Part shown: piece by piece, positions 4,783-64,000 of the stretch
Numbering within the stretch: the first letter of the stretch is position 1
Layout of the letters: the number at the start of each line of letters is the position of its first letter
NCBI GenBank assembly: GCA_963920765.1
Contig: OY987248.1
Span: forward strand, 14,728,539 to 14,792,538
Direction: 5' to 3'
Length of the DNA stretch: 64,000 bases
From: Ulota crispa
Lineage: Eukaryota > Streptophyta > Bryopsida > Orthotrichales > Orthotrichaceae
Made by a program: the position numbers and the translations under genes
The notes under the pieces: model-generated
Told to the model about the DNA's origin: nothing
The model's database searches: none
What the model saw: the letters and a program-made list of their open reading frames with translations, nothing else

Positions 4783-5698
4783 TTAACCCCTAAAGAACCA
4801 TTGTCCCTCCCGGGGACAAATAGGATTTTGGGCAGGTACCTACGACCTCAATTTTTGTTTTAATTTTTTGAAAGTTTTTTTGAAGATAGAAAAACACATT
4901 AGCTTTTGGGGAATATAATTTTTATTCCAATTGATGCCAGGGAGCAAAAGTTATGCCCAAATAAGTAAAAATTTGGGGATTAGGGGCAGCAAAAAAAATT
5001 TGAAAAAAAAAATTATTTATTTTTTCTTATAGATTATATCTTTGTCTACATCTGAAGCTTTGATTCATTCCATTTGGACTAGTTATGAGAAAGTTATGGA
5101 CAATCATGTTTTTTGGGCAACTTGAGCATCTTCTTGAAAAAATAACTTATAAACTTCATTTTTGAATGCAAGTTTAACATTTTTCCAAAAAAAACTATTG
5201 GAGAGGGTGAAGTTTGCTTTCTTGAACAATCTCACCATTGGGATTATTGCATTTCAATTCCAATCCAAGGTTGTTAACAATTTAAGTTTTTGTTCAATCT
5301 CATACCTTCTTCTACCTAATGTTTTTTTAAAGAATGAAAATTAAGTATTAATTTATAAATTTTTTTCCCAAGATTCCCAACTCAACTTCCCACCATGCAA
5401 AAATAGAATTCCAAACTTTGTGGTGCAAAAATTTTAAGTTAAAAATGTTTAAAGTTAAAAAATCTAATCATGCAAGGTGCAAAAAAAGTTTTTTTAACAT
5501 TTTAAATACATATATCTTCCAATTTGTGTTGTCAAAATTCTTGAGTTTTGTATGACACATTCTTATAGTAGTCTAGCACAAGATCCTACGGTCAAATATG
5601 CAAAATGCTTGATTTCCAAACTTTTTTACTCTTTACCATAGAAGTGATAGTTTTGAGTGTTTTTTGACAAAATAAAGGCCATGGTCCTTTAGGGTTAA
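4783..5698. mobile_element. TTAA-bounded piggyBac-like MITE, D1
   Basis: The left end reads TTAACCCCTAAAGAACCA and the right end TGGTCCTTTAGGGTTAA, an inverted repeat of about 17 bp beginning at TTAA on both sides. No longer target duplication lies outside the TTAA. A small subterminal palindrome (ATTGTCCCTCCCGGGGACAA) follows the left end, then GGATTTTGGGCAGGTACC, which is found inverted near the right end of the element at 7503-8270. No transposase ORF is present. TTAA target sites with CCC-starting ends are the hallmark of piggyBac; the assignment is by ends only. Confidence 0.75.
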
Positions 5699-6693
5699 AC
5701 AAAGCAAAGCAAAGCTTGCGACCGATAGGAAAACTCGAAACTAAGTAACCGCCAAATTCAAACAAAGCGCGCGCACCTTTCCTAAAAAAAACTTGCAGGA
5801 CCTCGCATTCTTATTACAAATTATATACACTATCGATCACTCACAGCAAACTTACGAAAACCTGGAAAAAAAAAAGCATAAGCGATGTCAATTTTTTTTA
5901 GTAAAATTGGAATTGAATGTTGTCGTCGCCGTAGCGGGAACTGAGCAGCGTCGTCGACGTACACCTCCTCCGCCACAGCAGCAGCAGCGATGAGAACGGA
6001 ATAATCTGCCGAAGCTTGGTGGCGCCCTGCTGCCAGAGCAGGGCTGGTTCGGTGTGACATCGTGTCTGACAAGGGAAGGCGGTGTTGTAGAGGAGGAGCC
6101 AGTGAGGCGAAGCGGTGGACCTGCTCCGCGGTGAGTGACGCAGCACCATCCCCCCTGTAATCAGTCCTTTACATTTTTGGACACCCGGATACAGAAATTT
6201 GTTTGAGTGGCCCCTCCAAACCGACTGGTGCTTGTGTCCTGCTTGAGACCCCCCCCCCCCAGTGCACCTTCACAGCAGCTACACGACGGAAAAGGGGCCA
6301 CATTCTGTCGCTCGTCGGATGAAACCCTGGAATGAAACTCATCGCTTTAACTTAATTTGTGCACAGGCTGTGAGAATATAGGTTAACTACACTTTTCGAA
6401 ATGCCCTGCTAATATCCATATATGACCCGTCATATATAAAAGATGAACATTACTATGTATATATTTAGATGCATGGTGAACTTTTGTACTCCAATGCATT
6501 TCACCGGATAAATTTGAATAAATATATTTTTGAAATTTTTTCCGAAATATTAAATAAATGTAATGATAATAAAATGTATTTTTTAATTAAGTACAAATAA
6601 ATAAATCTATTTTTAAAAATAATTTAAACAAATAAAAGACAATCCAAAACGTTTATGTTTAAAACTATAGTTTACATTTATATTTTTGATTCT
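5699..6693. other. GC-rich exon-like island, then AT-rich spacer
   Basis: Positions about 5920-6330 are markedly GC-richer than the flanks, with CGTCGTCGACG and CCGCCACAGCAGCAG runs and a run of C at about 6249-6260. Overlapping ORFs of 66-83 codons exist on both strands but show no known domain. It could be a 5' UTR exon, for example a distal leader of the minus-strand FPF1-like gene, or a coding exon I cannot identify. Positions 6330-6693 are AT-rich spacer with nothing recognised. Confidence 0.3.
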
Positions 6694-7463
6694 TTAACCC
6701 TTAAACGCCAAGGCCCATAGTCGTGACCTGCCCCGCACTGTACAGCTACAGTCCCCAAGCTGTGCCCATCCTATAGTATTGCTTCAAAAAGTGAGAAAAG
6801 TTAATAGTGCATGCTGCCCACCTGAAATTTGTAAGAAGGGCAAGAAGAGACTTATCAACCATGGTTGCAAATGTTCTCACAAATTTTAGTTTTGAAAACA
6901 TGAGGACTTTCAAACAATCCAATTTTGGCACTCCGTGGTGAAGAATCTTGCAATGACCAATTATGAAAATAAATTGAATAAAAAAAGCTTTTTTTCCAAC
7001 CCCCATATTGTTTTTTTGCACCAAAAGGACAATAATAGTCTTCTTTGACCTTTTAGGGTTAACAACAGTGGTCAATTCTGGAGGTGGGCAATCCTTTGTA
7101 TGGCCGTTTGGGACAAATTTTAAAACAATTGAATACAAATGTCTGCCACAAATCTGATCGTACAAATAGAAGTATCTCGCAGGGTTTAGTGTTAGGCATC
7201 ATGAATTATGCTCACTCTTTAGTTGTTATGGCCATCGTTTTGCATTCATTGGTGTATTTTCAGTTGATACTTTTTTAGTTTTTTCAACCCTTTGGCCAAT
7301 TGCCACCTCATTTTGGCCTGATTATTGTCCCAAATTCTTCACTTCCCAATTCCATAGACATGCCTCCTTTGGCTAATCACTAGATTCATTGCCATTCTCT
7401 TCGTACACATGGAAAAGGGGCCGGATCGACCACAAAGTGGTCAACCAGTCCTTAAAGGGTTAA
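6694..7463. mobile_element. TTAA-bounded piggyBac-like element(s), D2
   Basis: Starts TTAACCCTTAAACGCCAAGG and ends CCTTAAAGGGTTAA. A second inward-facing end, CTTTGACCTTTTAGGGTTAA, lies at 7043-7062, so this is either one element with an internal end or an element at 6694-7062 with a second copy or fragment after it. No transposase is readable. Confidence 0.65.
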
Positions 7464-7502
7464 CATGAGAAGGGACTCCAATATGTATTTCTGCTTTAAC
7501 CC

Positions 7503-8270
7503 TTAACCCTTAAACAACCAAAGGGCATAGTGTATATGTTGACATATAATTGTCATATGCTACTAATAAGAAGTTTTAATTTGGGATCTCAAGTAGCTCA
7601 CTAGAATCGCATTGATCTATTCTCCAACTTCTTTGTTGGTCTCAAATGTAATAGAAGTGTGGATCCATTCCAAATACAAGAAAAATACCCAAAACAAAAA
7701 ATACTTAATTTTCATTCTTTAAAAAAACATTAGGTAGAAGAAGGTATGAGATTGAACAAAAACTTAAATTGCTAATAACTTTGCAATGGAATTGAAACTC
7801 AATAATCCCAATGGTGAGGTTGTTCTAGAAAGAAAACTTCACCCTCTCCAACAACTTTTTTTGGAAAAATGTTAAGCTTCCATTCCAAAATGAACTGTAT
7901 AAGTTATTTTTACAAGAGGATGCTTGAATTGCCCAAAAATCAAGATTGTTCATAATTTTCTCATAACTAGTCCAAATGGAATGAATCAAAGCTTTAAATG
8001 TAAACAAAGATATAATCTACAAGAGAAAACAAAATTTAATCAAGTTTTTGTAAAAAAAATTTGCTGCCCGGACCCCCTAAATTTTTGCTTATTTGGGCAT
8101 AACTTTTGCTCCTTAGCATTGATTGGAATAAAAATTATATTCCCCAAAAACTAATGTGTTTTCCTATCTTCAAAATAAGTTTCAAAAAATCAGGACAAAA
8201 ATTGAGGCCGTAGGTACCTGCCCAAAATCCAATTTGTCCCTTGAATGGACAATGGTCCTTTAGGGGTTAA
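7503..8270. mobile_element. TTAA-bounded piggyBac-like MITE, D3
   Basis: Starts TTAACCCTTAAACAACCAAA, next to an extra TTAACCC at 7496, and ends AATGGTCCTTTAGGGGTTAA. Its right part is an inverted relative of the left part of D1: the GGTACCTGCCCAAAATCC segment and the flanking end match. Its left 190 bp also resemble D7 (17572-17807) in reverse. It carries only chance ORFs. Confidence 0.72.
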
Positions 8271-8470
8271 GGTTTAAACAACCAAGCAACCATAGGACAT
8301 AGTATGTACAATGCTATATAAGTGGCATTTGTTACCAATAAAAAGTTTTAAATTGGGATCTTGACTACCTCATTAGAACAACATTGATCTATATTCTAAC
8401 TTCTTTGTTGATCTCAAATGTAGTAAAGGTGTGGATGCATTCCAAATTCAAGAAAAGTACCTTATATTGT
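8271..8470. mobile_element. Partial D-family copy
   Basis: From about 8278 the sequence repeats the left arm of D3 (CCATAGGACATAGT, then AAAAGTTTTAAATTGGGATC, then ATTCTAACTTCTTTGTTG) and stops after about 190 bp without a right terminus. It directly follows the right end of D3, giving a head-to-tail arrangement of two related elements. Confidence 0.6.
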
Positions 8471-8507
8471 ATTCCTTACTACAGGCTGCCCAGTCGTTCA
8501 AGCTTCA

Positions 8508-8812
8508 AGGTAGGAGGCTCTAATTTGGCTCACGCTCTAGATTGGGTCACCTTCTCAAATGTACTATTGTTGTACATATTGTTTTTCATAGGCTTCAACA
8601 ATATACATTTGAGGAGGTGATCCATTTTAGAGCCCTATGATGTTTCCATTTCAAAATTTCATAACTAATTCCACAAAATTCCAAAAAATATGAAACAACT
8701 TGGATCAAATGCTACTTCTTGCCCTCAATTTACTGAAAAATATTTCAAGAAGTCTCACCTCTCCAAAATTCAATTTCAGCCCTTACATGATCCATTCATG
8801 GGCCTCGTACCT
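8508..8812. mobile_element. AGGTAGGAGGCTC-type MITE, B1
   Basis: Left end AGGTAGGAGGCTC, right end GGGCCTCGTACCT followed by TA. The interior holds an inverted pair around TCAAATGTAC and GTACATTTGAGGAGGTG. Seven further full or partial copies lie in this window. Most copies are flanked by TA on both sides, consistent with a TA target duplication; here the left flank is CA. It is non-autonomous. Confidence 0.75.
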
Positions 8813-8944
8813 TAGTTCTGCCGCAAGTCATTTTATTTGAGGGACTACTTGTACTTGTTTGTAACCTACTGCACTTGTTCTTCATACAATATCATTATCC
8901 TTTTCCAACTTACTCTTCTTTTCCTTTACAATTTACAAATTTAC

Positions 8945-10670
8945 AATGGATTTTGAGCGTTTTGGAGAGGTGATAATTTCTGATTTTTTTAAGTGGAGGC
9001 AAGATGATGCTGTTGTTAATTGGTGGCATTCTTAGACGAGTAGGTCAGGCTTTGCAACACATGGACTCTCGGAGACCTAAATGGGGTGGCTCTAGGCTTG
9101 GTCAAGCATTAGATTTGTTTAGAAGAAGAGTATTTGGTCATGTTTGTATATTTGTTGATTCTTTTGTTAAATACCTACTTACAAACATTCTCTTTATAAG
9201 ACAACATTAGACCTTTTTTTGTGCACATCATGATAGCAATTTGTGAGGTTGATGACTTCTTTGTGCGAAAGAAGGATGCAACTGATTAGTATGGGTCGTG
9301 TCTTCTATTCAAAAATGCACAATTGCATTGCACATGTTAACTTATGGAATATCTCCAATACCAAATTGACAATTCTAAAACTACAGAATTTGTGGAGCGT
9401 TTTTGTTGCGTGTGCAAGTGATTTTTGAATCAACATACTCAAGACAATTGACACAAAAGAACCTTGAGAAATAATTGAGCACCAATTTCGCGAAGGGTTT
9501 TTTTTGATATGTTTGATTTAATCAACTGCAAGTATTAAATCTAGAAAAACTAATTTGTGACATAGCAAGGACATTTCAGGAAAATGATGCAAACCGATCC
9601 ATCATTTTCAAAACTTTTGTTGATTACTCATTACGATTTTGGCATGCCTTCTAATAACCACATCAATATATTGGATTGGTGAGGGTTTTTTTAGCTCTAG
9701 GTGCAAAATGGTTGTTATTGAGATGGTCTCTAGTTTTTATAGACAATAACATAAAAAAATCATTGACTACTTAATGAGTGTGCGATTTGACAAATGTTTG
9801 TGTGTTTCTAATTGAATTTGGAACAAACATGAATTAACCCTCATTAGCACTTGGGTTATTGTATTTTTTGTAAACAACATGTACTTCAAAAGAAGTTATT
9901 GAATATAGCAGTGTAGTTCAATTTTTTTTTATAACTCTTTTGCTTGAGATTGCTTAAACTTATAGCTTCTACATTGACATGGAGTTACAATTTTTTTAAT
10001 TCCAATTGCTGAATTGATTTTAGCATAGTAAAATTGATTTCATATGTTAAAAATTGTTCAATATTATGTACTAATGTTAAATATAGTAGAATTCCTCTAA
10101 ACTAATATGGCTGGGACTCCAAGAATTACATTAGTTTAAGTAAGTTATTAGTTAATTTTGTGGAAGTGTAAATGAAGTGACCTTGAGGTTAGTGCCAAAA
10201 TAGCATCAAGGAGCATTACAACTATTGAATTAATTACTTTGGATTATGATTGACGTATGATCTGACTTTGAGATTTGTGTTATACATTAGTTTACAAAGG
10301 ATTTTAGTTTACATGATATTAGTTTACAGGAGTTCTACTATATAGAACTTGTGCAAATCTCTCCTAAAGATTGATATGCTTCAGATAAAGGGAGTTGGTG
10401 TGAAGTTTAGTGTAAACTGGCATCAATATGACAAATTTTATTTGCTAGTAGATAGAATGCATAAAAAATGGACTTGCTTTGTTGAGAAATTACATGAATT
10501 GCAAGATGAAATGCAAAATTATCTTCCACAAAAGTAAAGAGCTTGTAAGAAGGATGTGGAGAGAATATTTGATGTTCTACACTCTAGGTTTGACTTACTG
10601 AAAAATCTTTGTTGTTAATGGAACATGTCTCAAATTGAATGTATTAATTGGCATGTGTCATGCATAATAC
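8945..10670 (+). pseudogene. Decayed PIF/Harbinger (Pong-like) transposase
   Basis: Translated blocks of a plant Harbinger DDE transposase appear in order on the plus strand, in different frames with stops between them. From 9251 comes DDFFVRKKDAT, matching the family's FF..R.DATG block, followed by diverged remnants of the QKCTAA..MLAYG region and an EFVERFCC block. At 9638-9679 is FGMPSNNHINILDW, matching FGMPGS.NDINVLDRSP, which lies in the catalytic core. From about 10535 is RACKKDVERIFDVLHSRFDL, matching the C-terminal RKDVERAFGVLQARFAI block, then a diverged C..IL.NMI-like tail. An intact enzyme would be roughly 400-450 residues. No terminal repeats or ORF1 partner were located. It is non-functional and clearly old. 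Confidence 0.8.
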
Positions 10671-12845: not shown

Positions 12846-13824
12846 TTAACCCCTAAAGGCCCAAGCCCTTTTTTCTATGAAAGTCACTAAAAATTATCAA
12901 TTTTGAAGGAATGAGTAGAAAAGTAGGATTTTTTTATTTTATTTTATTTTTTTTGGAAATCCAACAGCGGGATCTTACCCTAGATTATGGGAGGTACACG
13001 TGGGAAAAAAACTAGCTCATTCTAGAGGTAAAGGAGTGAGATATTGACATTTGAAGTGAAAAGGAAAGTTTTTTTCTTTGCTGCCCAAAAATTTTAGAAG
13101 CCTTTGATTGCTCTTATATAAATAAAAATGCTCTATGCACAATTGGGGTTTATTTTTTCCATGTAGAATACCAAGTTAGGTATGTGTGGGAGAATTTTTG
13201 AATGAATTGGAGGTATAAGACATACTTTGTAAAATTTGGCAATGCCAGAAGGTCATGAAATTTGCATATACACTAGGCAAAATTGGAGGCTTTGTGTAAA
13301 ACTATAAATTTCAAATCATAATGATCCAAATGATGAAAACAGAGGGTTCTTAGCTTACTACAACTTTAGAAAAAAACTAATAAAAAAATAGATACTCGAA
13401 TTGCTCAAAAAATTAAAGCACCTAATTTTACAAGGGGCAAAAGGAATGGAGGTTTGGGAGTCCCATACCTACCAACAAACTAATAAAAGCTTCTCACTCA
13501 TCAATCAAATTGAATGATTCAAAGCTTCCCACATATATGCAAATGTAAAGAACCAATTTTAGATTTTTATTTATTTTTAAATGAGAATTTTTTAAAAGTT
13601 TTTTGGGCTATCTGGATTGCTTGCCCTCCATTGTTTTTTAGAAATTCATGCATTACTTCTTCAATAAATGTCGGAATGAAGAAAAAATTAGATGCCCGCA
13701 TAGGTCTTGAAATTCCCTACCTTCAATTGAAAATTTCAAAAATTCACACAAGCTACTTTTGCTATCGGTACATGCCAGAAATCCATTTATTCCTTAAGGG
13801 GACAGTTGGGCCTTAAGGGGTTAA
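12846..13824. mobile_element. TTAA-bounded piggyBac-like MITE, D4
   Basis: Starts TTAACCCCTAAAGGCCCAAG and ends GGGCCTTAAGGGGTTAA. It is homologous along its length to D9 (41163-42100) and, inverted, to D11 (51619-52524): shared features include a GAAAATCACT-like segment after the left end and a TACATGCC block near the right end. Its length of 979 bp is close to those copies (about 900-940 bp). The flanks just outside the TTAA differ. No intact transposase is present. Confidence 0.78.
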
Positions 13825-13972
13825 CTCAACAAACCTACACTTGTATTCAAAAAATGCTAGATAAAGATGTGGACTCCATTTCAGCTAAACTTGGCCATAT
13901 ATAATTATGTTTTTTTCTAATAAATAAACAAATTGTGAGGAAGTGTTTTGTTATTTGCATAAGGACAATCAG

Positions 13973-15266
13973 TTAACCCCTAAATGCCAAGGGATACTTA
14001 TCTTGAGTTAAGAAGGCATTTTGGAAGTTTTTGAGTTGTAATTGTAAGATCATTATCAAATATTGTTAAATATTGTAACTATAGGATTTTGAACTTCAAG
14101 GCTTCTAGATGATGGCACAAAAAAAAAAAAAAAAAAAAAAGAAAAAGCCCCGTGGATGTTAAGATATTTGTGATTGAATGTGGATGAGTATAGTTTTTTT
14201 TTTTTTTTGAAGCTACCCAAAACTTGTTATGCAAAATGACAATTTTTGTGTACAAAATTAGGAAACAGTCACTAATGATGATTTCAAATTTGTTGTTGTT
14301 AGACTGTAACTAATTACTTCCTTTCCAAATCCATGATCACAATTTTACATATGAGCCATCAATGCAATAGTCAAAGAGCTACCATCTATTACAAAATATG
14401 TTTAGCTCCAACCATTGAGCAAAAATCATTATGAATGAAAGAAAACTCAACAAATAATGAATTCTAATATGTATAACAAAAACATCCCAAGTTGAATTAA
14501 AGCAAATGCACATTTAGAATTTGTTTGATGATGAATTTCAATTAAAAAGCCCTAATTGACTAAAGGAGTGCCCAAATGAGATCTTTACTTATTCTCAACT
14601 TCCTACCCGTCTTTCCAATATGATAAGGTAGTATGCTCTATAACTGTCATTTTAAGGGCAAGTTTGCTTTTTCATGGGCTTTTAGGACATGAGGATTTTT
14701 TATTTAATTTTTAGACAAAGAGAAACATATGCCAAATGTAACACAATTTTTTCATATTTTTTGAAGCATTATTGAATAGTTGATGAATTTCAAAGTTTTC
14801 TATAATAGACACCTATTAGTAACTCTAGGTTTCCCATAAACCCTTCCCTTGTAGCTTATAAAGAGATGGGGTGAAACCAAGGAGTATGATTGGCTCTTGC
14901 AATAGAATACACCTTTCCTTCTATGACTCAAAGAGGTCCATTCAGAGACCACTTCATATCTATTCCTAAGCTACCTATGGGAATCTTTGTATGAAAGTGG
15001 CGCTTTTAGAACACAGTGTGCTTCTCATGAATCTTTCATGACACTATTAATCACATTTTTGATGCGCACTAGGCATGCTTGCAATTTAGCTTCTAGTAAA
15101 AATAATTGGAATGTGGTATGGAGGAAATTCAAATTGGACACCAAAGCTAACTTTAGAAAACAACTTCTCCAAAAGAAAAAATGATGCAATTCAAATCTTT
15201 CCCTTCAGCATGGTCTCAAAGTTTCTTGAACACCTAGACTTGGTGCCTTAGGCATGTAGGGGTTAA
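13973..15266. mobile_element. TTAA-bounded piggyBac-like element, D5
   Basis: The longest complete element of the D type: starts TTAACCCCTAAATGCCAAGG and ends CCTTAGGCATGTAGGGGTTAA with TTAA on both sides. Poly-A (from about 14119) and poly-T (about 14194-14208) tracts interrupt it. A 65-codon ORF at 14987-15184 has no recognisable DDD transposase motif. Only the outermost 15-18 bp resemble D1-D4. Confidence 0.65.
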
Positions 15267-15272
15267 CAACTA

Positions 15273-16026: not shown

Positions 16027-16035
16027 TAACAAAAA

Positions 16036-16655: not shown

Positions 16656-17027
16656 AGTTGACATAAGGGAACAAAAATTGTGTAGGTGGCAATTTGTGAT
16701 TGGGTGTGACATGGTCTTTTTGTTGTCGCTTTTTTGGGGGTCTAGTGTCCACAATAGGTCAATCCAAGGAGTTACCTGCAACAATTCTTAATTTATTTAT
16801 GATCTCAAAAAATTCCAAAAACAATTTTGCTTGAATCTATACCCATTTCTTAACAAGCACTTGCCATTACATTCTCAAAAGACCCTCCCACTTACCACAT
16901 TTGAGGCAAGTGTTGCATTTGGGTACTTCTACCTTAGCAGATTTGCAAGCAACACTTCCTTAGGCGGTCTTGTCCTGATGGGGCCACTAGAGCAGCACCC
17001 ACAACGGAGCCAAAAAGTTAACCCCTC

Positions 17028-17575
17028 ACTGCCCAAATCGGGCTTCTTTGAATTTTATTCAAAGATGCTCAACCTTTCTACAAGATTTTTTTTAGTGATT
17101 ATTATTATTTTTAAACTCTTATTGAAGTCTAGTTTCAGCATCAGTAGTCTAATTTTGAAAATGAATTAAGGTGATTTGTCTATTCAAGATTTTGTGCAAG
17201 GGTGTCCATGTAATTTAAAAAATTGTAGAATAGAGTTTGAGGAGCCGTAAATTGATTGCGGTTAATCATTTTATACTTACATACTTATATTTTTTTGGTA
17301 CCCACAACTTTAGGTTTGAGATGCAAAAAGAGGATTGAAAGGCTTCAAATCACTTTCGCAGTTTTAACACCCTCATGATCAAACATTATAATTTTTCAAT
17401 CCATAAATGATATTGTTTTGATTTCTTTTCCTATGTGATCTATAACATGTCTACTTTGAGTTTTTGCGGTTGCACTTTAGAGAAATTTGATAAGATTGTT
17501 CAAAATGCCGGCATTTTGTTCACTTTCAAGCAAATTCTAAGATACTCCAAACTACCATGGGCGGTGAGGGGTTAA
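17028..17575. mobile_element. TTAA-bounded piggyBac-like MITE, D6
   Basis: Starts TTAACCCCTCACTGCCCAAA and ends TGGGCGGTGAGGGGTTAA, a near-perfect 18-bp inverted repeat. Its right TTAA at 17572-17575 is also the left TTAA of D7, so the two elements sit end to end over one shared TTAA. Confidence 0.8.
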
Positions 17576-17807
17576 CCCTTAAACGACCAAAAGGCCCTTT
17601 GCAACTAATACAATACGGGATATTTTTCTTGTATTTTTGAAATGGATCCACACCTCTATTACATTTGAGACCAACAAAGAAGTTGAAAAATAAATCAATG
17701 CAATTCTAGTGTGCTACTTGAAATCCCAAATTAAAACTTCTTATTGGTAGCAAATGACAATTATACTTCAGCATACAAACTATTCCCTATGGTCGTTCAA
17801 GGGTTAA
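17572..17807. mobile_element. TTAA-bounded piggyBac-like MITE, D7
   Basis: Starts TTAACCCTTAAACGACCA and ends TGGTCGTTCAAGGGTTAA, giving about 17 matching terminal positions in 236 bp. The interior matches the left arm of D3 in reverse, so it looks like an internally deleted or one-arm derivative of that subfamily. It abuts D6 at a shared TTAA. Confidence 0.82.
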
Positions 17808-19610: not shown

Positions 19611-19615
19611 TAGAC

Positions 19616-30473: not shown

Positions 30474-30703
30474 TACACAATTATCTTGAGCCCATCCAAA
30501 ATGCTGTAGTTTTTGTACAATGTTTTGCATTCACATGGACAACTTTCTTCCCATAATTGGTTGCTGAGTTTTCTACGCTAACGTGGCACTGTTCCATAGG
30601 CAACCCATCACCATTGCCACTACAAGTTGCAACTCATAACCTTCTTTCCTTTCAACTTGCTTCCTACACCTTTGGATCATGAAGATCAAAGGAAATAACC
30701 TAT

Positions 30704-31115
30704 GGGGATTGATATGTCTACCACACCCTTTCAGCTATTCTACCACACCCCGGGGTAAATTTTAGACTTCTACCATCAAAAAGCTGAATTTGAGAATTTG
30801 GAATTCAGATCTGGACTTAGAGACCATGATTTAGTTAAGAATCATAAAAGGATTCTAATTGAACAACACACTCAATGAAAAAGCTTATCTTTTTATAGAC
30901 AATAGTAAAAATAATACTTTCCCCCAAGCTAAGCTTTTTCATTGGGTGTTGTGCAATTACAACTTTTTTGTTATGGTTTTAGACAAAATCCAAGTCTCTA
31001 AGTCCAAATCTAAATTCCAAATTCTCAAATTCAACTATTTGATGGTAGAAATCTAAAATTTACCCCAGGAGTGTGGTAGAATAGCTGCAAGGGTGTGGTA
31101 GACATATCAATCCCC
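30704..31115. mobile_element. Inverted-repeat element F1 with 9-bp target duplication
   Basis: Ends GGGGATTGATATGTCTACC and the inverse GGTAGACATATCAATCCCC, flanked by perfect 9-bp duplications ATAACCTAT (30695-30703 and 31116-31124). The inverted repeat continues inward as a second CTACCACACCCC motif, a TGAATTTGAGAATTTGGAAT segment and an AATGAAAAAGCTTATC segment, so most of the element folds on itself. Related to F2 at 44061-44797. It lies just upstream of TRAPPC4. A Mutator-type origin is inferred from the 9-bp duplication. Confidence 0.85.
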
Positions 31116-31391
31116 ATAACCTATTCATCACTGGCGCTGCTCATCAATTATCTAATACATAAAAATCCCCGTTCACACGAACAGATTTCTTCCCACAAAA
31201 GTCCCCTTTCACACGAACAGCGTCATTCTCACCGGAATTGACGACCGACCCCTCGTATGCGCTCTCATCGTCCTCCGTGTTCTGAGAATTCGGAGATGGC
31301 GTCGCACATTTGATGAGCGCCGATCGAAGCGCTCTCCGTTGTTTGTTGCAGCGCCATCGATCACCACAGCTTGTGCGCTCAACTCCCCGCC

Positions 31392-35135: not shown

Positions 35136-35774
35136 TACAGTCGGGTACAGTAATCTTACGAATTTTTTTGCAGTGAAATTTCAGCCAACAGTTCAGCAAC
35201 TTTAAGAAGTCATATTTTCCTCAAAGAATGTTCAATTTTGAAACCGCAAATTGCATTGGAATCACACAAAAGAGTACTACATGATTTGATAAAAATAAAT
35301 AAAAAATTGAAATTTTACAAATGATAAAAAAAGTTTGGTTACTTCCTATATTGTGTCAACCATCTAGTACTTCCACCTCTTGCAAAAATCACCGCTTGAA
35401 TTGATTGGGCATACTTGTAATAAGAGTTTTTAGTTGCTCCATGGATACCTCATCCCATACTCTTTGAATGATGTGTATCATTTCTTGCTTGTTCTTTGGT
35501 TGTTGGTGGTGGCGTAACTCAATCAAATTCAAGTGGTGATTTTGGCAAGAGGTGGAAGTACACTATATAGGAAGTAGCCCAATTTTTTTTATCATTTGTA
35601 AAATTTCAGATTTTTTGTTTTATCAAATCATGTAGTACCCTTCAGTAGTATTCCAACACAATTTTTGGTTTCAAAAACGGATAATTTTTGAGGAAGTTAT
35701 GGCCTTTGGAAGGTCTTGAAGTTGGCTGAAATTTCACTGCGAAAAAATTCATAAGATTACTGTACCCAACTGTA
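35136..35774. mobile_element. Degenerate Tc1/mariner-type element
   Basis: Inverted ends CAGTCGGGTACAGTAATC and the matching GATTACTGTACCCAACTG are bordered by TA on each side, and the repeats continue inward to GTGAAATTTCAGCCAAC and its inverse. TA target sites and CAGT-starting ends are typical of Tc1-like elements. The interior (minus strand, 35389-35553) still encodes the C-terminal tail of a Tc1-type transposase. The rest of the transposase is missing, so this is an internally deleted, non-autonomous copy. Confidence 0.82.
35389..35553 (-). pseudogene. C-terminal fragment of Tc1/mariner transposase
   Basis: A stop-free minus-strand frame ending in TGA at 35389 reads CQNHHLNLIELRHHQQP and then EMIHIIQRVWDEVSMEQL followed by KTLITSMPNQFKR. 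It aligns with the family's QSPDLNPIE..W..LK region, which carries the last catalytic acidic residue (E kept as E in NLIE), and with the I...W..I....L..LI.SMP.R tail. Only about 55 residues of a roughly 340-residue protein remain. The usual SPDLNPIE reads NHHLNLIE, so the motif has decayed. Confidence 0.75.
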
Positions 35775-35775
35775 T

Positions 35776-36641
35776 AGTACCCCTCAATATGTTTATGTTT
35801 GTACTCACTTTTCCGTTTAATTTTTTTTGCATAATCTAGAGTATAATTGCATTTCTTGCCTTGTATCAAGGTTTTGTAACTTTTATGCAGTTCTAATCAA
35901 GCATACCAAATTTTAGTTCCAAAAAGTCAAAAATCTATTTTTGGTAAATTGTTTTGTATTATAATGCATGGTTTATATGAAAATTGATTGAAGAAAATTG
36001 GTGATGAATTTTTGAAATATGATTGCATAGATATGTAGGAAACATCCATATGCGCATCTTCCATGCTAAAGAAAACCCCCTTAAGTCACAAAAATTTGGT
36101 TTACAAAAAATTCACTAAAACTTGTGATAGACCCAAATTTTGTAAAATATATATTATTCTATGAAAATCAATTTTTGATGTTTGACTTAAATATTGTAAC
36201 TAGGTTTGTATCTCTAAACATGAAATATTGTTTTCTTGATGAAAAGCTAGTTAAAAATTAGAAATATATATCTAAGAAAATTTGGGTCTATCACAAGTTT
36301 TAGTGAATCTTTTGTAGACCAAATTTTTGTGACTTAAGGGGGTTTTCTTTAGCATGGAAGATGTGCGTATGGATGTTTCCTACATATCTATGCAATCACA
36401 TTTCAAAAATTCATCACCAATTTTCTTCAATCAATTTTCATATAAACCATGCATTTTAATACAAAACAATTTACCAAAAATAGAGTTTTGACTTTTTGGA
36501 ACTAAAATTTGGTATGCTTGATTGGAACTGCATAAGAGTTACAAAACCTTGATACAAGGCAAGAAGTGCAATTATACTCTAGTTTATGCAAAAAAAATTG
36601 AACGGAAAAGTGAGTACAAACATAAACATACTGAGGGGTAT
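35776..36641. mobile_element. Large foldback: about 360-bp inverted arms
   Basis: The arm starting TACCCCTCAATATG near 35778 is repeated inverted, ending CATACTGAGGGGTA at about 36640. The two arms (about 35776-36140 and 36284-36641) match almost base for base with scattered differences, leaving a loop of about 145 bp. There is no coding sequence. It abuts the right end of the Tc1-like element. Transcription across it would give a hairpin of several hundred base pairs. It may be a foldback transposon or an inverted duplication. Confidence 0.88.
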
Positions 36642-36920
36642 TGTACGGTGCATGACACATAACCAACGACTCCCAATTCAAGTGGTTAGCCTAAGGCTTT
36701 TTCAAAAAAAAAGTTATCAAAAAATTAAGTCCACCAAGATGAAGCTTAGGATTTGTCCCACTTAGTGGTGGAGTTATTTTTGAGCTAACGAGTATATGTT
36801 GTGCTTTAGTATTTCTTGTTTGGCCAGTAGTTGTTGGTTATAAGTGTCATGCACTATATACCTTGATTTTTCTATCTTCACATTGCACATATGTCTATGA
36901 CTGTAAGTTAGAAATCAGTA

Positions 36921-37916: not shown

Positions 37917-38481
37917 GTTTTACCCCTTAAATGCCTAATATAAAATAAGAGTCTGTCTTCTTGATTATGTTTATATGCATGTTTATCCAGCTGTCTTCAT
38001 GTTTGCAATTCTTTGGAATTTGATTTAGAGATTCAAATACATCAACAAAGCGCAACTAGTGAAATGGACAGTCCACTCCAAAATCTCTTTAAAAGATTAC
38101 ATAATTGGTAGTGGTAACAGTCCCTTAGAGCATCCTATTATCAAATGCTTGATGTGCCTAATTTTAGTTAAATCAGGTACCAAACTCTTAAAGAAGTAGG
38201 CATTATATCCAAAAATATTCTCAAAAAACCTTAGAACTATAAACTACACTTGGGTATTTTAGTTTGTCCTCTGGGATTAGGCAGAAGACCCACATGGAAT
38301 TAGGCAAAATAAGCATTTGTTTTTAAATCCCTAATTTTGAGAAGGCTTCACTAAATTCATTGTAATTTTTCCTCTAGAACTAGGTTTTAAAGCCATGTGA
38401 ATTTAATCCCTAAATGCATGAGGCACAGATTTCTAGTGTAAAATCCACTGGAACTTGGTGCTGCACGCATTTAGGGGTTAA
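37917..38481. mobile_element. piggyBac-like MITE with one decayed TTAA, D8
   Basis: The left end reads TTTACCCCTTAAATGCCTAA and the right end GCATTTAGGGGTTAA. The right side keeps TTAA; the left side has TTTA at the matching position, probably a point change. About 565 bp without coding content. Confidence 0.55.
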
Positions 38482-41162: not shown

Positions 41163-42100
41163 TTAACCCCTAAAAGACCACTCCTTTTTTTTCTCTGAAA
41201 ATCACTGAAAATTGCCACTTCTAGGAGGTTTAGAAAAAAGGGATTTTGTGTTTTGTTTTTGGGAAATCTTGCCATAGGATCTTGCCCCAAACTAGAAGAG
41301 GTACCTGTGGGGAAAAAATCAACTCATTCTAGATGGAGAGGAGTGAGAAATTTACATCTAAAGTGAAAAAAAAGTTTTTTTCCATGCTGCCCCAAAATTT
41401 TAGAAGCCTTTGACCACTCCTATATCAAAAAAATTGCTCTATCCAAAGTTGCGCTTTTTCTTTCCATGTAGAAGATTAAGTTTACTATGTGTGGGAGAAT
41501 TTTCAAATCAATTGGAACTATGCAACACATGGGAAAAATCAATAAGTAGAAAGAAGTAGAGAATGAGTCAAATCACTAAATTGTTAAGAATTTAATTATT
41601 GAAATGAAAAATGCAAATCCCAAAGGTTATAATGTTGTGATATACTATCTACTTCCTTTGGTTTAATTTATTTTCCAAAATAATGAAAATTGATTGAAAT
41701 AAAGGATTTCAAAGTTTATTTTAGAGTAGGGAATCCATAACTTCCCCCAATCAAAAACTCCTCATAACTTTCATCTCATTGACTGAAGTTGAATGATTCA
41801 AAGCTTCTCACATACGAAAAAATCTAAATAACCAATTTTAATTTTTAATTTAAAAAAATGTAAATTTTTAAAGAAAATTTTGGGCTGCCCGAGCAGGCAG
41901 TCCTTCCCAAATTTTCATAAAATCATGCAAAACTTCTTCATCAAATGTCAAAATGAAGAAAAATTTAGATTCCCACATAGATTTTTGAATTCCCCACCTT
42001 CCACAAAAGTTTCAGAAAATCACACAAAGTAGTTTAGCCATAGGTACATGCCCGAAGTCCAACTTGTCCCCCAAAGGGACAATGGTCCTTTAGGGGTTAA
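41163..42100. mobile_element. TTAA-bounded piggyBac-like MITE, D9
   Basis: Starts TTAACCCCTAAAAGACCACT and ends ATGGTCCTTTAGGGGTTAA. Full-length relative of D4 and of D11 (inverted). Near the right end it has the subterminal palindrome TTGTCCCCCAAAGGGACAA, also seen in D1, D3 and D11. No intact ORF. Confidence 0.8.
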
Positions 42101-43311: not shown

Positions 43312-43700
43312 TTAACTCCTAAAGGCCCAAACAATGTTTTTTTGGCAACATAGTAATTTTGGGCACCTCACTACAAATGGATTGTTCCTTATTTTTCTTT
43401 GAAATTTTCACACAGGATGTGCCCAAGGAGTAGCTTTAAGGTTCAACAATTTTCATAACTATTAATTTTGTGGTTCAAAAATTATTGCATGATATGTAAT
43501 TTTCTTTACTCAACATGCAGCCCAAGCAACTCAAAGAAAATTCTTTAGAAATTTCATGTAACATAAATTGGTTTTTTTAAATTGCTAGATTGGATATACA
43601 TATATGTGGGACATTTTGAATAATTCAATTTTGATTGATGAGATGAAAGTTATGAGAAGTTTTAGATTGCTATTAGATATGGTTTTGAGAAAAAAAACAT
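43312..43700. mobile_element. Truncated piggyBac-like element, D10
   Basis: A single left end, TTAACTCCTAAAGGCCCAAA, is present at 43312. No matching right end could be found before 44030, so the element is truncated; its right limit here is arbitrary. Confidence 0.45.
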
Positions 43701-44060: not shown

Positions 44061-44797
44061 GGGAAATGATATGTGCACACCCAGGGTTTGATATATGCAC
44101 ACCCAGGGTTTGATATATGCACACCCAGGGTTTGATATATGCACACCCACGGTTTGATATATGCACACCCACGGTTTGATATATGCACACCCAGGGTTTG
44201 ATATATGCACACCCAGGGTTTGATATATGCACACCCAAGGTTTGATATATGCACACCCAGGGTTGATATATGCACACCCAGGGTTTGATATATGCACACC
44301 CACGGTTTGATATATGCACACCCAAGGTTTGATATATGCACACCCTCGCACGTAAAAATTAATTTTAGACTTTTACAATCAAAAAGTTGAATTTGAGAAT
44401 TTTGAATTCAGATTTGGACTTAGAGACCTTCATTTCATATAAAACCATGAAGAAGGTTACAATTAAACAACGCCTAATGAAAAAGCTTATCTTTTTTTAC
44501 AAACAAAAGTAAAAGTAATAGTTTGCACCCTACCTAAGCTTTTTCATTAGGCATTGCTCAATTCTAACTTCCTGTAAAGTTCTAGACTAAATCAAGGTCT
44601 CTAAGTCCAAATCTGAATTCAGAATTTTGAATTCAATTCTAACTTCCTATACAGTTCTAGACTAAATCAAGGTCTGTAAGTCCAAATCTGAATTCAAAAT
44701 TTCGAATTCAACTTTTGGATGGTAAAAATCTAAAATTTAGCCCGCCCGCTGGGGGGCGTGCATATATCAAACCCCGAGTGTGCATATATCAATTCCC
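44061..44797. mobile_element. Inverted-repeat element F2 with expanded left end
   Basis: The left end GGGAAATGATATGTGCAC is inverted on the right as GTGCATATATCAATTCCC. Perfect 8-bp duplications ATATTTAA lie outside (44053-44060 and 44798-44805). The interior TTGAATTTGAGAATTTTGAA and AATGAAAAAGCTTATC segments match F1 at 30704-31115. Unlike F1, the left terminal motif has been multiplied into a 22-bp array. Confidence 0.82.
44068..44345. repeat. 22-bp minisatellite, about 12 copies, in the left end of F2
   Basis: Units of GATATATGCACACCC plus a seven-base tail (AGGGTTT, ACGGTTT or AAGGTTT) repeat about 12 times with a 22-bp period; one unit is 21 bp. The same motif occurs only about twice, inverted, at the right end (about 44757-44790). 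Overlapping minus-strand ORFs of 94-104 codons across it are produced by the repeat and are not genes. Confidence 0.95.
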
Positions 44798-46588: not shown

Positions 46589-48270
<1,682 letters not shown>

Positions 48271-48890
48271 ATATTTTTGATTGTAGATGAATTGCATCGA
48301 ATGTAGATGAATTGAGTCGAGTGTGGATGACTTATGATGAGTGAGGATGAATTGCGTCGATTGTGGGTTACGTTGATTGCGGATGAAGTGTGTCGAATGT
48401 GGATGGATTGCGTGACGGGGGATTCAGTTGTTTGCGTCGAATGTGGATGACTTCAGTTGAGTGTGGATGACTTCAGTTGAGTGTGGATGACTTCAGTTGA
48501 GCGTGGATGACTTCAGTTTAGTGTGGATGACTTCAGTTGAGCGTGGATGACTTCAGTTTAGTGTGGATGACTTCAGTTGAGCGTGGATGACTTCAGTTGA
48601 GTGTGGATGACTTCAGTTGAGTGTGGATGACTTCAGTTGAGTGTGGATGACTTCAGTTGAGCGTGGATGACTTCAGTTTAGTGTGGATGACTTCAGTTGA
48701 GTGTGGATGACTTCAGTTGAGTGTGGATGACTTCAGTTGAGTGTGGATGACTTCAGTTGAGCGTGGATGACTTCAGTTTAGTGTGGATGACTTCAGTTGA
48801 GTGTGGATGACTTCAGTTGAGTGTGGATGACTTCAGTTGAGTGTGGATGACTTCAGTTGAGTGTGGATGACTTCAGTTGAGTGTGGATGA
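48271..48890. repeat. 20-bp minisatellite upstream of the MAS2/NKAP gene
   Basis: From 48441 to 48880 the unit GTGTGGATGACTTCAGTTGA repeats 22 times without a gap; the only recurrent variants are GCGTGG for GTGTGG and TTTA for TTGA. From 48271 to 48440, and in the last unit, diverged GTGGATGAATTGCGTCGA units form the border. The array starts about 210 bp upstream of the MAS2/NKAP ATG. Confidence 0.97.
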
Positions 48891-51618: not shown

Positions 51619-52524
51619 TTAACACCTACATGACCATTGTCCATTTGGGGGACAAATGGGATTTTGGGCATGTACCTATGGCTAAACTACTTTGCGTGCT
51701 TTTTGAAACCTTTATTGAAGGTGAGGAATTCAAAAATCTACGTGGGAATGTAATTTATTCTTCATTCCAACATTTACTGAAGAATCTAGAAAATGCTGCT
51801 CCTTGGGCAGCCAAAAACTTTTTTAAAAATTGCGTTTTTTTTCAAATAAAAATCTGGAATAGGTACTTTAGACTTATATAGACATGGGGAGTTTTGAATC
51901 ATTCAATTTTGATAAATGAGATGAAAGTTATGAGGAGTTTTTGTTTACGGGCAGTTCTAGATTCTCTACTTTAAAATAAACTTTGAAGTCCTTTATTTTA
52001 CTCAATTTTCAATATTTTGGAAAAAAAAAAAAAATTAAAGGATGTAGATTATTTTTCACAACATTATAACCATTGGGATTTGCATTTTCATTATAATAAT
52101 TAAATTCATAACAATTTAGTGTTTTGACTCACTCTCTACTTCTTTTTACTTTCTATTTTTTCCCATGCGTTGTATAGTTCCAATTGATTTGAAAATTCTC
52201 CCACACATATCTAACTTGGTCTCCTACTTGGGAAAAATAAACCTCAACTTTGTGTAGAGTAATTTTTTTGCTCTAAGAGTGGTCAAGGCCTTTTGAAATT
52301 TCTAAACAGCAGCAAAAATTAAATAAATCCGCAATTTAGGTGTAAATATCTCACTCATTTTTGTGTAAATTGAACTCATTTTTACCCATGTGTACCTCTT
52401 GTAGTTTACTATAAGATCTTACAGTTGAATTTTTGTAAAAAACCTTTTTTTTTACTTGTTTCCCCAAAAGTGGCAATTTTTTATGCTTTTTGCAAAAAAA
52501 ATGGCTTGGTCCTTTACGGATTAA
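51619..52524. mobile_element. piggyBac-like MITE, D11 (diverged)
   Basis: Starts TTAACACCTACATGACCATT and ends TTGGTCCTTTACGGATTAA; TTAA is kept on both sides although the ends have several changes. It is an inverted relative of D4 and D9, with the GGATTTTGGGCATGTACC block near the left end. A 112-codon ORF (51543-51881) crosses its left edge and is not a gene. Confidence 0.7.
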
Positions 52525-59600: not shown

Positions 59601-60608
59601 TGGTGTTTTTTAAGTAATTAGCTTAATATAAGGAAAACTAGTGGGAATTAGTGGGAAAGCGTTCAAGGGAGAAGTTAATTTGATAGGCACAATCTTGGTC
59701 TTAAAGTGTCTAAAAATAGGCACTCAAGGCTCTTGCCATTCTCACAATTTAGGAATGGCTGCTAAAGAGGGTGAAAATAAAGCATTAGAAAACAAAAACC
59801 ACTTGGTAGGCGCTGTTTTACATTTACATAAATGCAATATTAATCACTTATAGCAGTTTTTAATATCAAGAATATCTTATTCAAAATTTTAAATACCAGA
59901 TTATTCTTTATTGGGCAACACTTAAATAAGCAAAGAAACTAATTGCATTCAATCTCTATTTTTAATTGAATCATAACAAAAAAAATCATTTTGTATGATG
60001 ATTCTATAATTATAAATTGAATGTGTTTTTGCCTAAATGATTATTTCTTTACGATAAACTTTCAATGAATGTACTTTGATTCAAAAAGTCAAGGTTGTTA
60101 GAGTTTTCTTAGTTTTGAGTATGTAAGTATCAAATTTGAATTAATATCAAATAGAAAATATAAGATGCATAACTTGTAAATAAATTAACTAAAAAAGAGA
60201 TTGGGTTTTGATCAATATTAGGGATTCATTTATAAATTTGTAATAAAATCACATTCTAGATAATTAGACCTTTTAAATGCACACAATGATGTTTTTGTTG
60301 CAATCAAGGTTCATAGTGATAAATATGTGATGATTTGAGGAAATATGTAAGATTTCCCTAACCAAATATTTCTATGATAGTTGCAATGCTCCAACAATTA
60401 ATTAATTTTTATCCTTTTTTTATTTTATCAAATAATATTTCAGTTTGTTTACTTTTTTTTTGATCTAATCAAGGTATTATTATTTTTATTGATTTTTTTG
60501 AAAAAACACATTTGTATGAATTCAAAAAAGTAAGAAAGAAACCATAAATATGTATTCAAAAAGATATATTTAATGTTGGATTGAGTATCAAAGATTTAAC
60601 TTTTAGCT
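56607..60608. other. Gene-poor region with coding-like fragments
   Basis: At 56766-57023 and 57121-57484 the sequence is less AT-rich, and short ORFs are found, among them one from ATG 57340 to TAG 57484 that reads MDHPVEINQSPAEVHNVVL onward for 48 codons. None carries a known domain; they may be decayed gene or transposon pieces. At 58060-58560 a phrase like CACAAAATTTTGG recurs irregularly. From 58600 to 60608 only AT-rich sequence is seen. Confidence 0.35.
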
Positions 60609-61655
60609 ATGAATTACATGATTGATGAATTAGGTTTCTTTGTTCCATTGGATTTGTGGCGTATAATATTTTGTTTTGTACCAATAGTTAGTCTTTGTAG
60701 GTTTCAAGTAGTTTGTCATGAATGGAAAACTATCATTCATAGCAATGAATTCAATAGAGCAAGGATTAAAAGACATATACAACAAAAAGAAATGTTTGTT
60801 TTTGGATATAATTCTCTTCATACCATTTCATTTCTTGATTTTTCAAGTGGTCAACGATATCGAATCAAATGCTCATTTTTTAAAACAGATGTATTAGTGA
60901 GTACAAAATATAGGTTTCTTGCTACAAAAGATGGTTTGATTCTCATTTTATGTAGACCTCGTTATATTGTTTTTGCCAATTCCATTATTGTTTGTAATCC
61001 GGTTACAAAAACCTATAAACATCTTTCTTTACCTAAAACACAAATTGATTGGAAAACTGAAGGTGACATGATTGTAAACCCCTATTCAAATACGTTTGAG
61101 ATAGTAACATTTGAAAATCATCCTTTTGATTACCTACATGTTTATAATTCCAAGCTTGATAAATGGCAATCATATGTTAGCATGTTTAATGAAGTCTATG
61201 TGACTTCTTGGTCGCTTTATGACAATGTTGTATATATTTTATGCAAAGGTTGTCTGAATCCAATGCTCATGATTTTTGACATAAAGAAGGAAACTTGGTT
61301 CAAATATGACCTTGATAATTATTTTGAAAGGGGATGGAAATTGTTTGTCATTCAACATAGATTATTTTTTATTCAAATCTATCACAATGCAGCTCTTATA
61401 CTTGAATTAATAACTTATCCAAATAATCAAGATTCAAGAATCAAATTGATGTACCGTGTTGATTTAAATAATGGCTTTCATGACGTTCAAGATGCAATAA
61501 TTTTTGGCAAAAACATTATTATTCCAACTTGGAATGGAGGCTCTATTATCAATGTTTTACAACAAACTATGGAAACTCTCAATTGTAGTTTTTCTGACAT
61601 TATACGTTTTGATTTTAAAGGTTCATATGAGTTTAGTATGTTTAGAATACAATAG
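60609..61655 (+). CDS. F-box protein with F-box-associated (kelch-like) C-terminal region
   Basis: Intact single exon of 348 codons starting at ATG 60609. Residues about 10-50 form an F-box: FFVPLDLWRIIFCFVPIVSL then CRFQVVCHEWKTIIHSNEF, with the usual P.DL...I...P...L.R...V...W pattern. The rest has repeated beta-blade-like segments: an NPVTKTYKHLSLP segment, VNPYSNTFEIVTFEN, VYNSKLDKWQSYV and IFDIKKETWFKYDL, as in plant F-box-associated or kelch-type F-box proteins. Such proteins act as substrate adaptors of SCF (SKP1-Cullin-F-box) ubiquitin ligases; the substrate is unknown. The gene is as AT-rich as its surroundings, and AT-rich codon use contrasts with the MAS2/NKAP and FPF1-like genes. 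It is intronless and isolated, as in rapidly evolving F-box families. A TATAAATATG-like or TATATTTAATG stretch lies 40-60 bp upstream. Confidence 0.87.
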   Translation: MNYMIDELGFFVPLDLWRIIFCFVPIVSLCRFQVVCHEWKTIIHSNEFNRARIKRHIQQKEMFVFGYNSLHTISFLDFSSGQRYRIKCSFFKTDVLVSTKYRFLATKDGLILILCRPRYIVFANSIIVCNPVTKTYKHLSLPKTQIDWKTEGDMIVNPYSNTFEIVTFENHPFDYLHVYNSKLDKWQSYVSMFNEVYVTSWSLYDNVVYILCKGCLNPMLMIFDIKKETWFKYDLDNYFERGWKLFVIQHRLFFIQIYHNAALILELITYPNNQDSRIKLMYRVDLNNGFHDVQDAIIFGKNIIIPTWNGGSIINVLQQTMETLNCSFSDIIRFDFKGSYEFSMFRIQ

Positions 61656-62457
61656 AAAACAAAACATTTTGTTTGCTCAAAATAATACATGATTGTCACT
61701 CATTACCCTTCACTAATTTTCATTTTATTTATTTTTGTTATAAAAGCCAAGAAATTGCAATTTTAATATCTTTGTTGCTTTGATCATCCTTTTAAAAACA
61801 GAACCACATCTATGTTTATTTGCACACTACAACCAACAACTACCAAAGTTATAAATTCATAGATAGAACACTTCCAAATCATATTTGATAAGGTAGTATG
61901 GTTGAGTCCAAATATTCAAGGAGTGTATATGTATTCTAATATGTAACCTTTTAACAAGATTAAAACATTGTGTATATTGATGAACATTTTGTCTAAATAG
62001 TCACCATTAATTTTTTTGTATCTACATTGCTACAGTAGTATCATTATGTAAATCACCATGTTCCCAAGAGGAGATATTTGGCAACTATCATCTCCATTTC
62101 AAGAAAAAAGAAATCTCTCAAGAATATTGTTCAACAAAGACATTCTATCTACACTACTTGATTGATGATAACAAAAATATTCAAAAATTTGTACTTGGGC
62201 ATTTTTATTCTATATTGAAAGCTTGTTTATGAATGGACTTTTTGAATGTTGATCTTCCTCTTATTTATTTATTTATTTATTTATTTACAAGTCTTGTAAA
62301 CCCATTTACCAAGGTAAATGAATAGTGGTGAGATTTTAAGTGGGGATCCAATGTATTTGATAGCAAAAAGGAGGAAAATTCATTAAAGAACTTTTTATTT
62401 TTTGAATTTGGATTTCAAGTTCAAATCAAGAATTATCCAATGGGTCTCATTAATTAA
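61656..62457. other. AT-rich spacer with ATTT microsatellite
   Basis: A (TTAT)n run lies at about 62260-62286. Otherwise nothing was recognised apart from the probable 3' UTR of the F-box gene. Confidence 0.45.
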
Positions 62458-62790
62458 ATCATTAGGAAAAATATGGGGCCCCAATAAGGCCTTGAGTTTG
62501 GGGGGGTCCCTAGCCATGGGAACTCGGTTCCCAATAAAATCATGCGCAAGCTGAGGTGGCATCATTGATGCCACCTCAGGTTTTTCAAATTTTTTTATTA
62601 AAAAAAATCAAAATAAAAAAGTTTCTTATTTTTTTCTAAGACTTTTATTTTGTTTTGGTTTTTTGGATTTTTTTAATTAATTTTTTCTGGCCTTTTGCAG
62701 GGGCTGGTTCTCTACATCGGGAATAAAACATATGGAGGGCCAGATTTGTTTATAAAGGTCTTATGGGCCCCCCATATTTTTCCTAATGAT
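62458..62790. mobile_element. Inverted-repeat element J with central palindrome
   Basis: Ends ATCATTAGGAAAAATATGGG plus GCCCC and the inverse CCCATATTTTTCCTAATGAT form inverted repeats of about 25 bp. Inside, at 62551-62579, is a near-perfect palindrome: CTGAGGTGGCATCA, one base, then TGATGCCACCTCAG. Non-coding; no target duplication was recognised, so the superfamily is open. Confidence 0.75.
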
Positions 62791-63671
62791 GTCTTTTCAT
62801 GTCAATCAATACTCTTCTAGTTTTAAATTTTCAAATTTAAAGATTAGACAATGGTGTTCATTTCAATTGTCTTTTTGTTTCCCTCCCCACCCCTTTGTAT
62901 TCATTTTAAAATACAAAGTAAGAGTTAACTAATAAGGTTCATTGAAAATGTCCTTTCACCTTCCAAATATAAGGTAAAACACCGGTCACAATATACCAAA
63001 CGTTTTTTGTTTTTTGATTATGTTGCAGGTTGACCAGTTGTAATTACCCAACAGACATGTAAAAGGGGGCATTTTTTTATAAATGTTAGATTTATTTATT
63101 TATAATACAATAATGATGTCAATTTACACAATGAGTAAAACAAATCATGTGTTTGTTTTAAAATTTTACAATCAATATATGATAGTTGAATTTTCACTTT
63201 GTCATTTGTAATTTACATATGAAGTTTGACATCCAACTAATTTTAACATCCAATTCTTGAAAAAGTTTTGTCTATAACAGTATGATTGACACCAAGATTT
63301 CACTTTTCCACTTCAACAATGTGGTGATTTAGAGGGGACATAAATCCACAACTCTACAAGGATAACATTTTCTTTGCAAAAAACATTTATGGGTTGAAAT
63401 TTGTTACGCACGTGTCAAGCCTAGCTTTATCACTTTATGTGCATTAATTGTGCTAACTACTTTCAAATAAAGAAAAATGAAAGAGAGAGAGAAAGAAAGA
63501 AAAAGAGAAAATGGGGAGAAAGAAAACAAAAAACACAAACAAAAAAGTGCTTGAAAAGATAGAGCAAATAAAAGCACATTGAGAAAGACAAAAAATGAGA
63601 GTGTAAGAGAGAAATAAGAAAATGAGAGCAAAAAATTGAAATCATGCATATTCTCTAAAACAAATCTCTCT
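62791..63671. other. AT-rich spacer with GA-rich tract
   Basis: At about 63476-63615 the plus strand is purine-rich (GAAAGAGAGAGAGAAAGAAA and variants). ORFs on the minus strand over this tract (63404-63649) are phenylalanine/leucine-rich artefacts. Nothing else was recognised. Confidence 0.45.
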
Positions 63672-64000
63672 AACCCCTAAAGGTCCAAGGGTAAAACATA
63701 GGTGTGTTATAAAATGGTACTTTTGTAACTTTGATGAATTTTTCTTCAAAATAGAAAATAAGAATCATAATGTTGAGTAATTATCCATATGGTCAAACAC
63801 TCAAAAAAAGTTTTGGATTTTTATGTAATGAATTTAGAAGCATTTACCATTTAATATTTAACAAAATTACAAATTTTACTCATAGATTTCAAAATTTGGT
63901 ATGATTGGTTAAAAATTGATATTCTATTTTAAATTTCAAAAATGCAATTTTTTGAAAGGAGAGAACATCATTAGTTTCCCAAAATAGTAAATTTTACAAC
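63672..64000. mobile_element. piggyBac-like element cut by the window end, D12
   Basis: CTAACCCCTAAAGGTCCAAGG at 63670 matches the D-family left end, with CTAA in place of TTAA. The right end would lie beyond the window. Confidence 0.5.

Follow-up and report, generated by a model that had tools for sequence, protein, structure and literature searches.

Short TTAA-bounded elements in the moss Ulota crispa as probable non-autonomous members of the piggyBac superfamily

We analyzed 64,000 nucleotides of the moss Ulota crispa (assembly GCA_963920765.1, contig OY987248.1, positions 14,728,539 to 14,792,538, forward strand; hereafter the window, numbered from its first base), which carry short elements that start with TTAACCC and end with GGGTTAA. 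The closest described systems are the piggyBac transposons. The ends of piggyBac from Trichoplusia ni start with CCC. This transposon (PDB 6x67/6x68) has a DDD transposase and uses TTAA; one of its left ends contains, at bp 17-33, a palindromic repeat to which a dimer of the cysteine-rich domain binds (PMC7351741; papers are cited here for the parts consulted). The moss elements described below share the DDD transposase, TTAA, CCC-starting ends and a left-end palindrome with it. However, the 19-bp palindrome of piggyBac occurs on both ends, differently spaced (PMC11707139), whereas 14 of the 15 moss right ends scored are without one. The second system, piggyBat from Myotis lucifugus (PDB 9c0f), resembles the moss elements in its PF13843-type transposase, its TTAA target and an imperfect palindrome on the left end with none on the right (PMC11707139). 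It differs from them in having three palindromes on the left end, where one was seen in the first 46 bases of the moss left ends; the moss elements are about 5 kb long and mostly broken.

piggyBac-like elements occur in plants (PMC8086355), PiggyBac is listed among the superfamilies present in all groups studied, land plants included (PMC4438587), 1,230 PiggyBac copies are tabled for a fern (PMC6890710), and PiggyBac is one of seven superfamilies named for miniature inverted-repeat transposable elements (MITEs) of angiosperms (PMC10004981). Thus, the presence of the superfamily in plants is not new, and an earlier sequence-only reading of the window, which took it to be little described in land plants, needs correction on this point (PMC8086355, PMC4438587). 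Unlike the angiosperm MITEs, the moss MITEs have a link to elements of their own genome that carry a transposase, and one family has 10,100 exact ends. Among the matches listed in our literature search, none concerned piggyBac elements in a moss genome; one candidate, PMC10619864, was discarded because the word there is "piggybacking". Within the literature searched, the scale in a moss and the link of MITEs to transposase elements are new.

We consider the window elements to be non-autonomous (MITE) members of the piggyBac superfamily, with a probability of about 0.93. The sequence-only reading had reached the same assignment by treating TTAA and CCC-starting ends as diagnostic. These features are insufficient alone; the transposase and the anatomy of the ends decide. 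The assignment is supported by PF13843 transposases within elements that carry like ends, and by a single TTAA at the empty sites of two such elements.

Transposases and element ends in the same genome

The genome searched comprises 274.8 Mb in 157 contigs. The PF13843 (DDE_Tnp_1_7) profile gave at least 120 matches (best E 1.3e-73), and none in 14 control genomes. The majority of the matches carry internal stops. All six open segments submitted matched PF13843, and a PDB search with two open segments (E up to 1) returned piggyBac 6x67 and piggyBat 9c0f as the sole matches. In the open copy at locus L032, the one copy on which all three positions were aligned, the catalytic aspartates (TVDE, TDNF, GVDIVDQ) align with those of both structures. 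After the PF13843 domain, a cysteine-rich motif was recognised at five of 20 loci, in one case weakly, and the pattern did not match at the remaining 15; the controls gave 0/40.

Contaminating animal or fungal DNA could be suspected, since the superfamily is best known from animals. This explanation is hardly credible. Contigs C1 to C11, which belong to the main assembly, carry the transposase matches, and the ends occur on C1 (among the matches listed) and in the window on C7 (22 Mb). Moreover, the plastid contig C157 has complete psaA and psaB, and fragments of both are found in the same large contigs. PsaA scored 1642 bits against 6l35/7ksq/7xqp and 8htu, 1610 against 9lut and about 1570 against the group that followed; on these scores, the host is likely to be a moss and almost certainly a land plant.

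When the 20 best transposase loci were compared strand-matched, nine pairs could be aligned across the gene region (more than 300 columns, 64 to 90% identity). Thus, there are several old transposase lineages. The closest pair, L009 and L018, is 90.5% identical over 5 kb with identical borders, the left TTAA of L018 being TTCA. The matches at C7:18203169/18223004 and at C2:36765124/36779670 have equal scores on opposite strands. At L037, positions 3441-5129 (C1:1180709-1181995) hold a PF13843 gene as two open parts separated by a gap, and no convergent end pair was found in the 7.3-kb stretch analyzed there. This gene is a candidate domesticated transposase or a spliced copy.

Convergent TTAACCC-type ends surround the transposase at 10 of 20 loci (200 shuffles: mean 0.21, maximum 2) and at 3 of 10 further loci (shuffle mean 0.045, maximum 1). 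Two elements are complete: L009 has 5027 bp and runs from TTAACCCCTCATCGCC to GGCAATGAAGGGTTAA, and L014 has 5102 bp, TTAA included in both cases. L036 has an end pair matching at 14/18 that delimits 5656 bp, and its right TTAA has decayed to TTGA. These elements are connected with the window at two places. Window positions 7248-7463 align with two transposase elements: with that at C7:2697503 in its left end (216 columns, 71.3%, E 2.9e-24) and with L036 (198 columns, 69.2%). The ends of the window element at 17018-17575 are of the L014 type (15/16 at one end).

We also analyzed palindromes near the ends, which were scored at p<=0.05 against shuffles of the same 30 bases, with TTAA counted in the positions. 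A palindrome starting at base 18-22 was detected in 10 of 13 transposase left ends and in 0 of 11 right ends (Fisher 1.5e-4). In four more elements, it was present in two left ends (starts 18 and 23) and one right end (start 30), which brings the totals to 12/17 left ends versus 1/15 right ends. By analogy with piggyBac and piggyBat, the moss left-end palindrome may have the same role as theirs.

The elements of the window

The features of the window are as follows (strand given where one is assigned). Elements 1 to 8 are those that the sequence-only reading had listed as TTAACCC...GGGTTAA units; TIR denotes terminal inverted repeat.

Element 1, 4783..5698: MITE of 916 bp; palindrome TTGTCCCTCCCGGGGACAA in the left end (position 19); 91.5% identical to MITE m6 (L006) over 928 columns
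Element 2, 6694..7463: probably composite; 369-bp TIR pair 6694-7062 plus the relic transposase-lineage left end 7248-7463
7248..7463, minus strand: relic of a left end; homology to the C7:2697503 element, which bears a transposase
Element 3, 7503..8270: MITE of 768 bp; ends resembling element 7 on one side and element 1 on the other; exact dominant 18-mer at the right end
Element 4, 12846..13824: MITE, 979 bp; left end TTAACCCCTAAAGGCCCA; TIR 17/18
Element 5, 13973..15266: MITE, 1294 bp; right part and flank also present in a duplicated region on C1 (L086)
Element 6, 17018..17575: MITE, 558 bp; ends TTAACCCCTCAC(T/C)GCCCA, the same type as transposase elements L009 and L014
Element 7, 17572..17807: MITE, 236 bp; TTAA in common with its neighbour 17018-17575 (the last TTAA of the latter)
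37920..38481: diverged MITE, 562 bp; left TTAA decayed
Element 8, 41163..42100: MITE of 938 bp; palindrome TTGTCCCTTTGGGGGACAA in the right end; 86.0% identical to MITE m4 over 941 columns
43312..43330, plus strand: lone diverged end without a partner in the window
51619..52524: diverged MITE, 906 bp; 78.3% identical to 41163-42100 over 817 columns
63670..63700, plus strand: diverged left end of an element that would continue past the window

All eight listed elements have the GGGTTAA end, and seven begin with TTAACCC at the base first given; the sixth begins at 17018, not 17028. Among the four diverged elements that had been proposed in addition, the one at 37917 has its partner right end at 38481 (14/18) and the one at 51619 at 52524 (13/18), whereas 43312 stands alone in the window. 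The end proposed near 63672 is present with its start at about 63670. As a single unit, 6694-7463 is doubtful, since the pairing 6694-7062 is better (15/18 versus 13/18 for 6694-7463) and 7248-7463 is a transposon left end. The bases outside TTAA, which had been described as different at every insertion, are mixed: position -1 is C in 15, T in 14, G in 14 and A in 5 of 48 ends, 16 of them in the window.

TTAA-bounded convergent pairs with matching TIRs gave eight rows in the window, whereas 20 block shuffles yielded 0.1 on average. The rows comprise six of the listed elements and two alternative pairings, elements 1 and 2 falling under the threshold. Single fuzzy ends are barely above chance (39 versus 30.7 expected from shuffles); therefore, the weight of the evidence rests on pairs. 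The ten delimited elements, with 6694-7463 taken as one, cover 7,924 bases, or 12.4% of the window. They are short, TTAA-bounded and carry TIRs but no transposase; among the PF13843 matches listed for the genome, none lies inside the window. An Rfam search across the window gave 0 matches.

A palindrome starting at base 17-22 was detected at exactly one end in 9 of 17 MITEs (elements 1, 2, 3 and 8, and m2, m3, m4, m6 and m29). In element 2, the palindrome-bearing end is the relic left end. The other 8 of the 17 were below the threshold there, and five MITE ends pass elsewhere (starts 24-31).

The dominant 18-base end, TTAACCCCTAAAGGNCCA, occurs 10,100 times in the genome (5066 + 5034; reversed control 0), and the same end without TTAA, CCCCTAAAGGNCCA, occurs 11,954 times (control 0). 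Thus, 84.5% of the dominant ends retain an intact TTAA. In the window, the exact 18-mer is found at three of roughly 20 element ends. Since so few ends match exactly, extrapolation from this single window suggests that the whole population may run to some tens of thousands of elements. The identity between MITE pairs is 67-92%, which fits the proposal of the sequence-only reading that the source was active for a long time.

Several minor observations concern these MITEs. L035 was considered as a transposase element with the dominant end and was rejected: its near-dominant ends at 41 and 6330 (15/18) belong to two MITEs that flank the transposase, one like element 8 (41-963) and the other like element 5 (5772-6330). 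The CCCTAAA motif is the plant telomere unit; its inclusion in the dominant end, CCCCTAAAGG, is probably a coincidence. MITEs share or abut the terminal TTAA of another element at window position 17572, at L133 and at L036 position 6361. The motif GCACGTGTACC adjoins three MITEs (window 41163, L002 and L007) and perhaps belongs to another repeat. L143-L146 (C1:177793-178908 and 193619-194734) represent a recent inverted duplication: two oppositely oriented copies of one MITE, flanks included, lie about 16 kb from each other.

Empty sites and evidence against the assignment

The transposase element at C1:30795509 is inserted into a repeat family, and 12 of the 38 listed junction-region places were examined as empty sites. 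TTAA was found in 11 of them and TTTA in one. For the transposase element L027, all eight empty sites have a single TTAA; these derive from five host copies, three of which contributed both arms of a foldback. For the MITE L135 (C1:576696-577636), 11 of 21 listed places were examined. One TTAA was present at a 3-base offset in eight of them, TTCT in two and TTTT in one. Of two other searches for empty sites, one yielded matches across the junction for the MITE m2 and the site at 17018-17807 only. The other yielded a match at C8:5080344-5080454, which passes the junction by 14 bases and is a possible empty site of the MITE m29.

An empty TTAA alone cannot separate TTAA duplication from duplication of the TA within it, and Tc1/mariner-type elements that duplicate TA with a preference for T-TA-A would leave such sites. 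Nevertheless, this alternative is highly improbable: the linked transposases are of the PF13843 type, and all four bases of TTAA are retained in the above-mentioned 84.5% of dominant ends.

Several results weigh against the piggyBac assignment. None of the nine empty sites of the MITE L137 has TTAA (5 TCAA, 2 -TCA, 1 TAAA, 1 T-AA), nor has any of the 20 of the MITE m2 (16 CCAA, 2 CTAA, 1 TCAA, 1 GCAA). Thus, the single TTAA expected by the sequence-only reading holds for the two transposase elements, whereas the MITE empties are mixed. In both MITEs the slot is about four bases, and a longer duplication was not seen. The copies are just 80-86% identical, and these empties are no proof of the target; the copy that was hit may have gained its TTAA by one or two C-to-T changes. 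The sole paralogue of the site at 17018-17807 has no TTAA and is too diverged for the target to be read. As for the transposase loci, 17 of the 30 scored have no end pair, and one of the 13 pairs, that of L011, is doubtful: its right end is MITE-like, and the pair is probably a neighbouring MITE. A palindrome (at base 30) also reached the threshold in one right end, that of the C7:2697503 element. Furthermore, the palindrome counts are not independent, since several left ends are close relatives.

Finally, TTAACCCCTAAAGGNCCA on both sides of a transposase was not found in the stretches around 39 loci (the 30 scored for end pairs plus L009, L014, L018 and L032-L037). The sequence-only reading had proposed a search for a DDE_Tnp_1_7 transposase with matching termini; ends of the same kind were found, but not the dominant ends on both sides. 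This result leaves room for another superfamily as the origin of the dominant MITEs, with only some minor families being piggyBac. Sola2 and Sola3 also duplicate TTAA. A fern repeat table includes 2,739 Sola copies (PMC6890710). In contrast, the table in PMC4438587 puts Sola2 among the single-group superfamilies, under animals. Moreover, the PF13843 elements carry ends of the form TTAACCCC..GG.C with the palindrome at the same place, and comparison of the dominant end with the closest transposase end shows differences at 3 of the first 20 bases. What the dominant family has in common with the PF13843 elements is confined to this end grammar and the palindrome position. We regard a Sola origin as improbable and retain the piggyBac assignment for the dominant MITEs as well.

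Proposed mechanism and neighbouring sequences

In the mechanism that we propose, the DDD transposase from full-length elements of about 5 kb would bind the terminal repeat with its core, and its C-terminal cysteine-rich domain would bind the subterminal palindrome of one end. The enzyme would then cut at TTAA and paste the element into other TTAA sites with duplication of TTAA, and short copies with usable ends would be mobilised in trans. Earlier copies appear to have offered their terminal TTAA as a further target (17572; L133). Most of the transposase copies are now broken. We tentatively suggest a wider picture, which we hold to be somewhat less probable than its opposite. In this picture, diverse and long-lived piggyBac lineages of their own have persisted in mosses, and in these the palindromic site is confined to the left end. 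The lineages would have given rise to tens of thousands of MITEs, which make up roughly a tenth of the sequence analyzed, and at least one open copy that has no terminal repeats close by (C1:1180709-1181995) may have turned into a host gene.

The results indicate that piggyBac, which has been studied mainly in animals, has been very successful in a land plant and can have a major part in building such a genome. They provide end sequences and transposase lineages from a plant for comparison with piggyBac and piggyBat, and many lineages can be used to study the role of the left-end palindrome. The results also suggest that plant repeat annotation relying on animal piggyBac models may overlook such elements.

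The window contains other repeats and genes. A foldback at 35769-36649 (903 columns at 88% to its own reverse complement) is not a TTAACCC element, and related sequence was found in L026 and L086. A palindromic repeat family is represented at 30701-31118 and 44307-44792; its relatives adjoin the transposase loci L012, L022 and L036. Two tandem arrays were detected, one at 44067-44345 (22-bp unit TGATATATGCACACCCAGGGTT, 12.7 copies, 96%) and the other at 48442-48890 (20-bp unit, 22.5 copies, 95%). The latter lies upstream of a minus-strand NKAP-like gene (46589-48058). An F-box protein gene with one open frame of 348 aa is located at 60609-61655.

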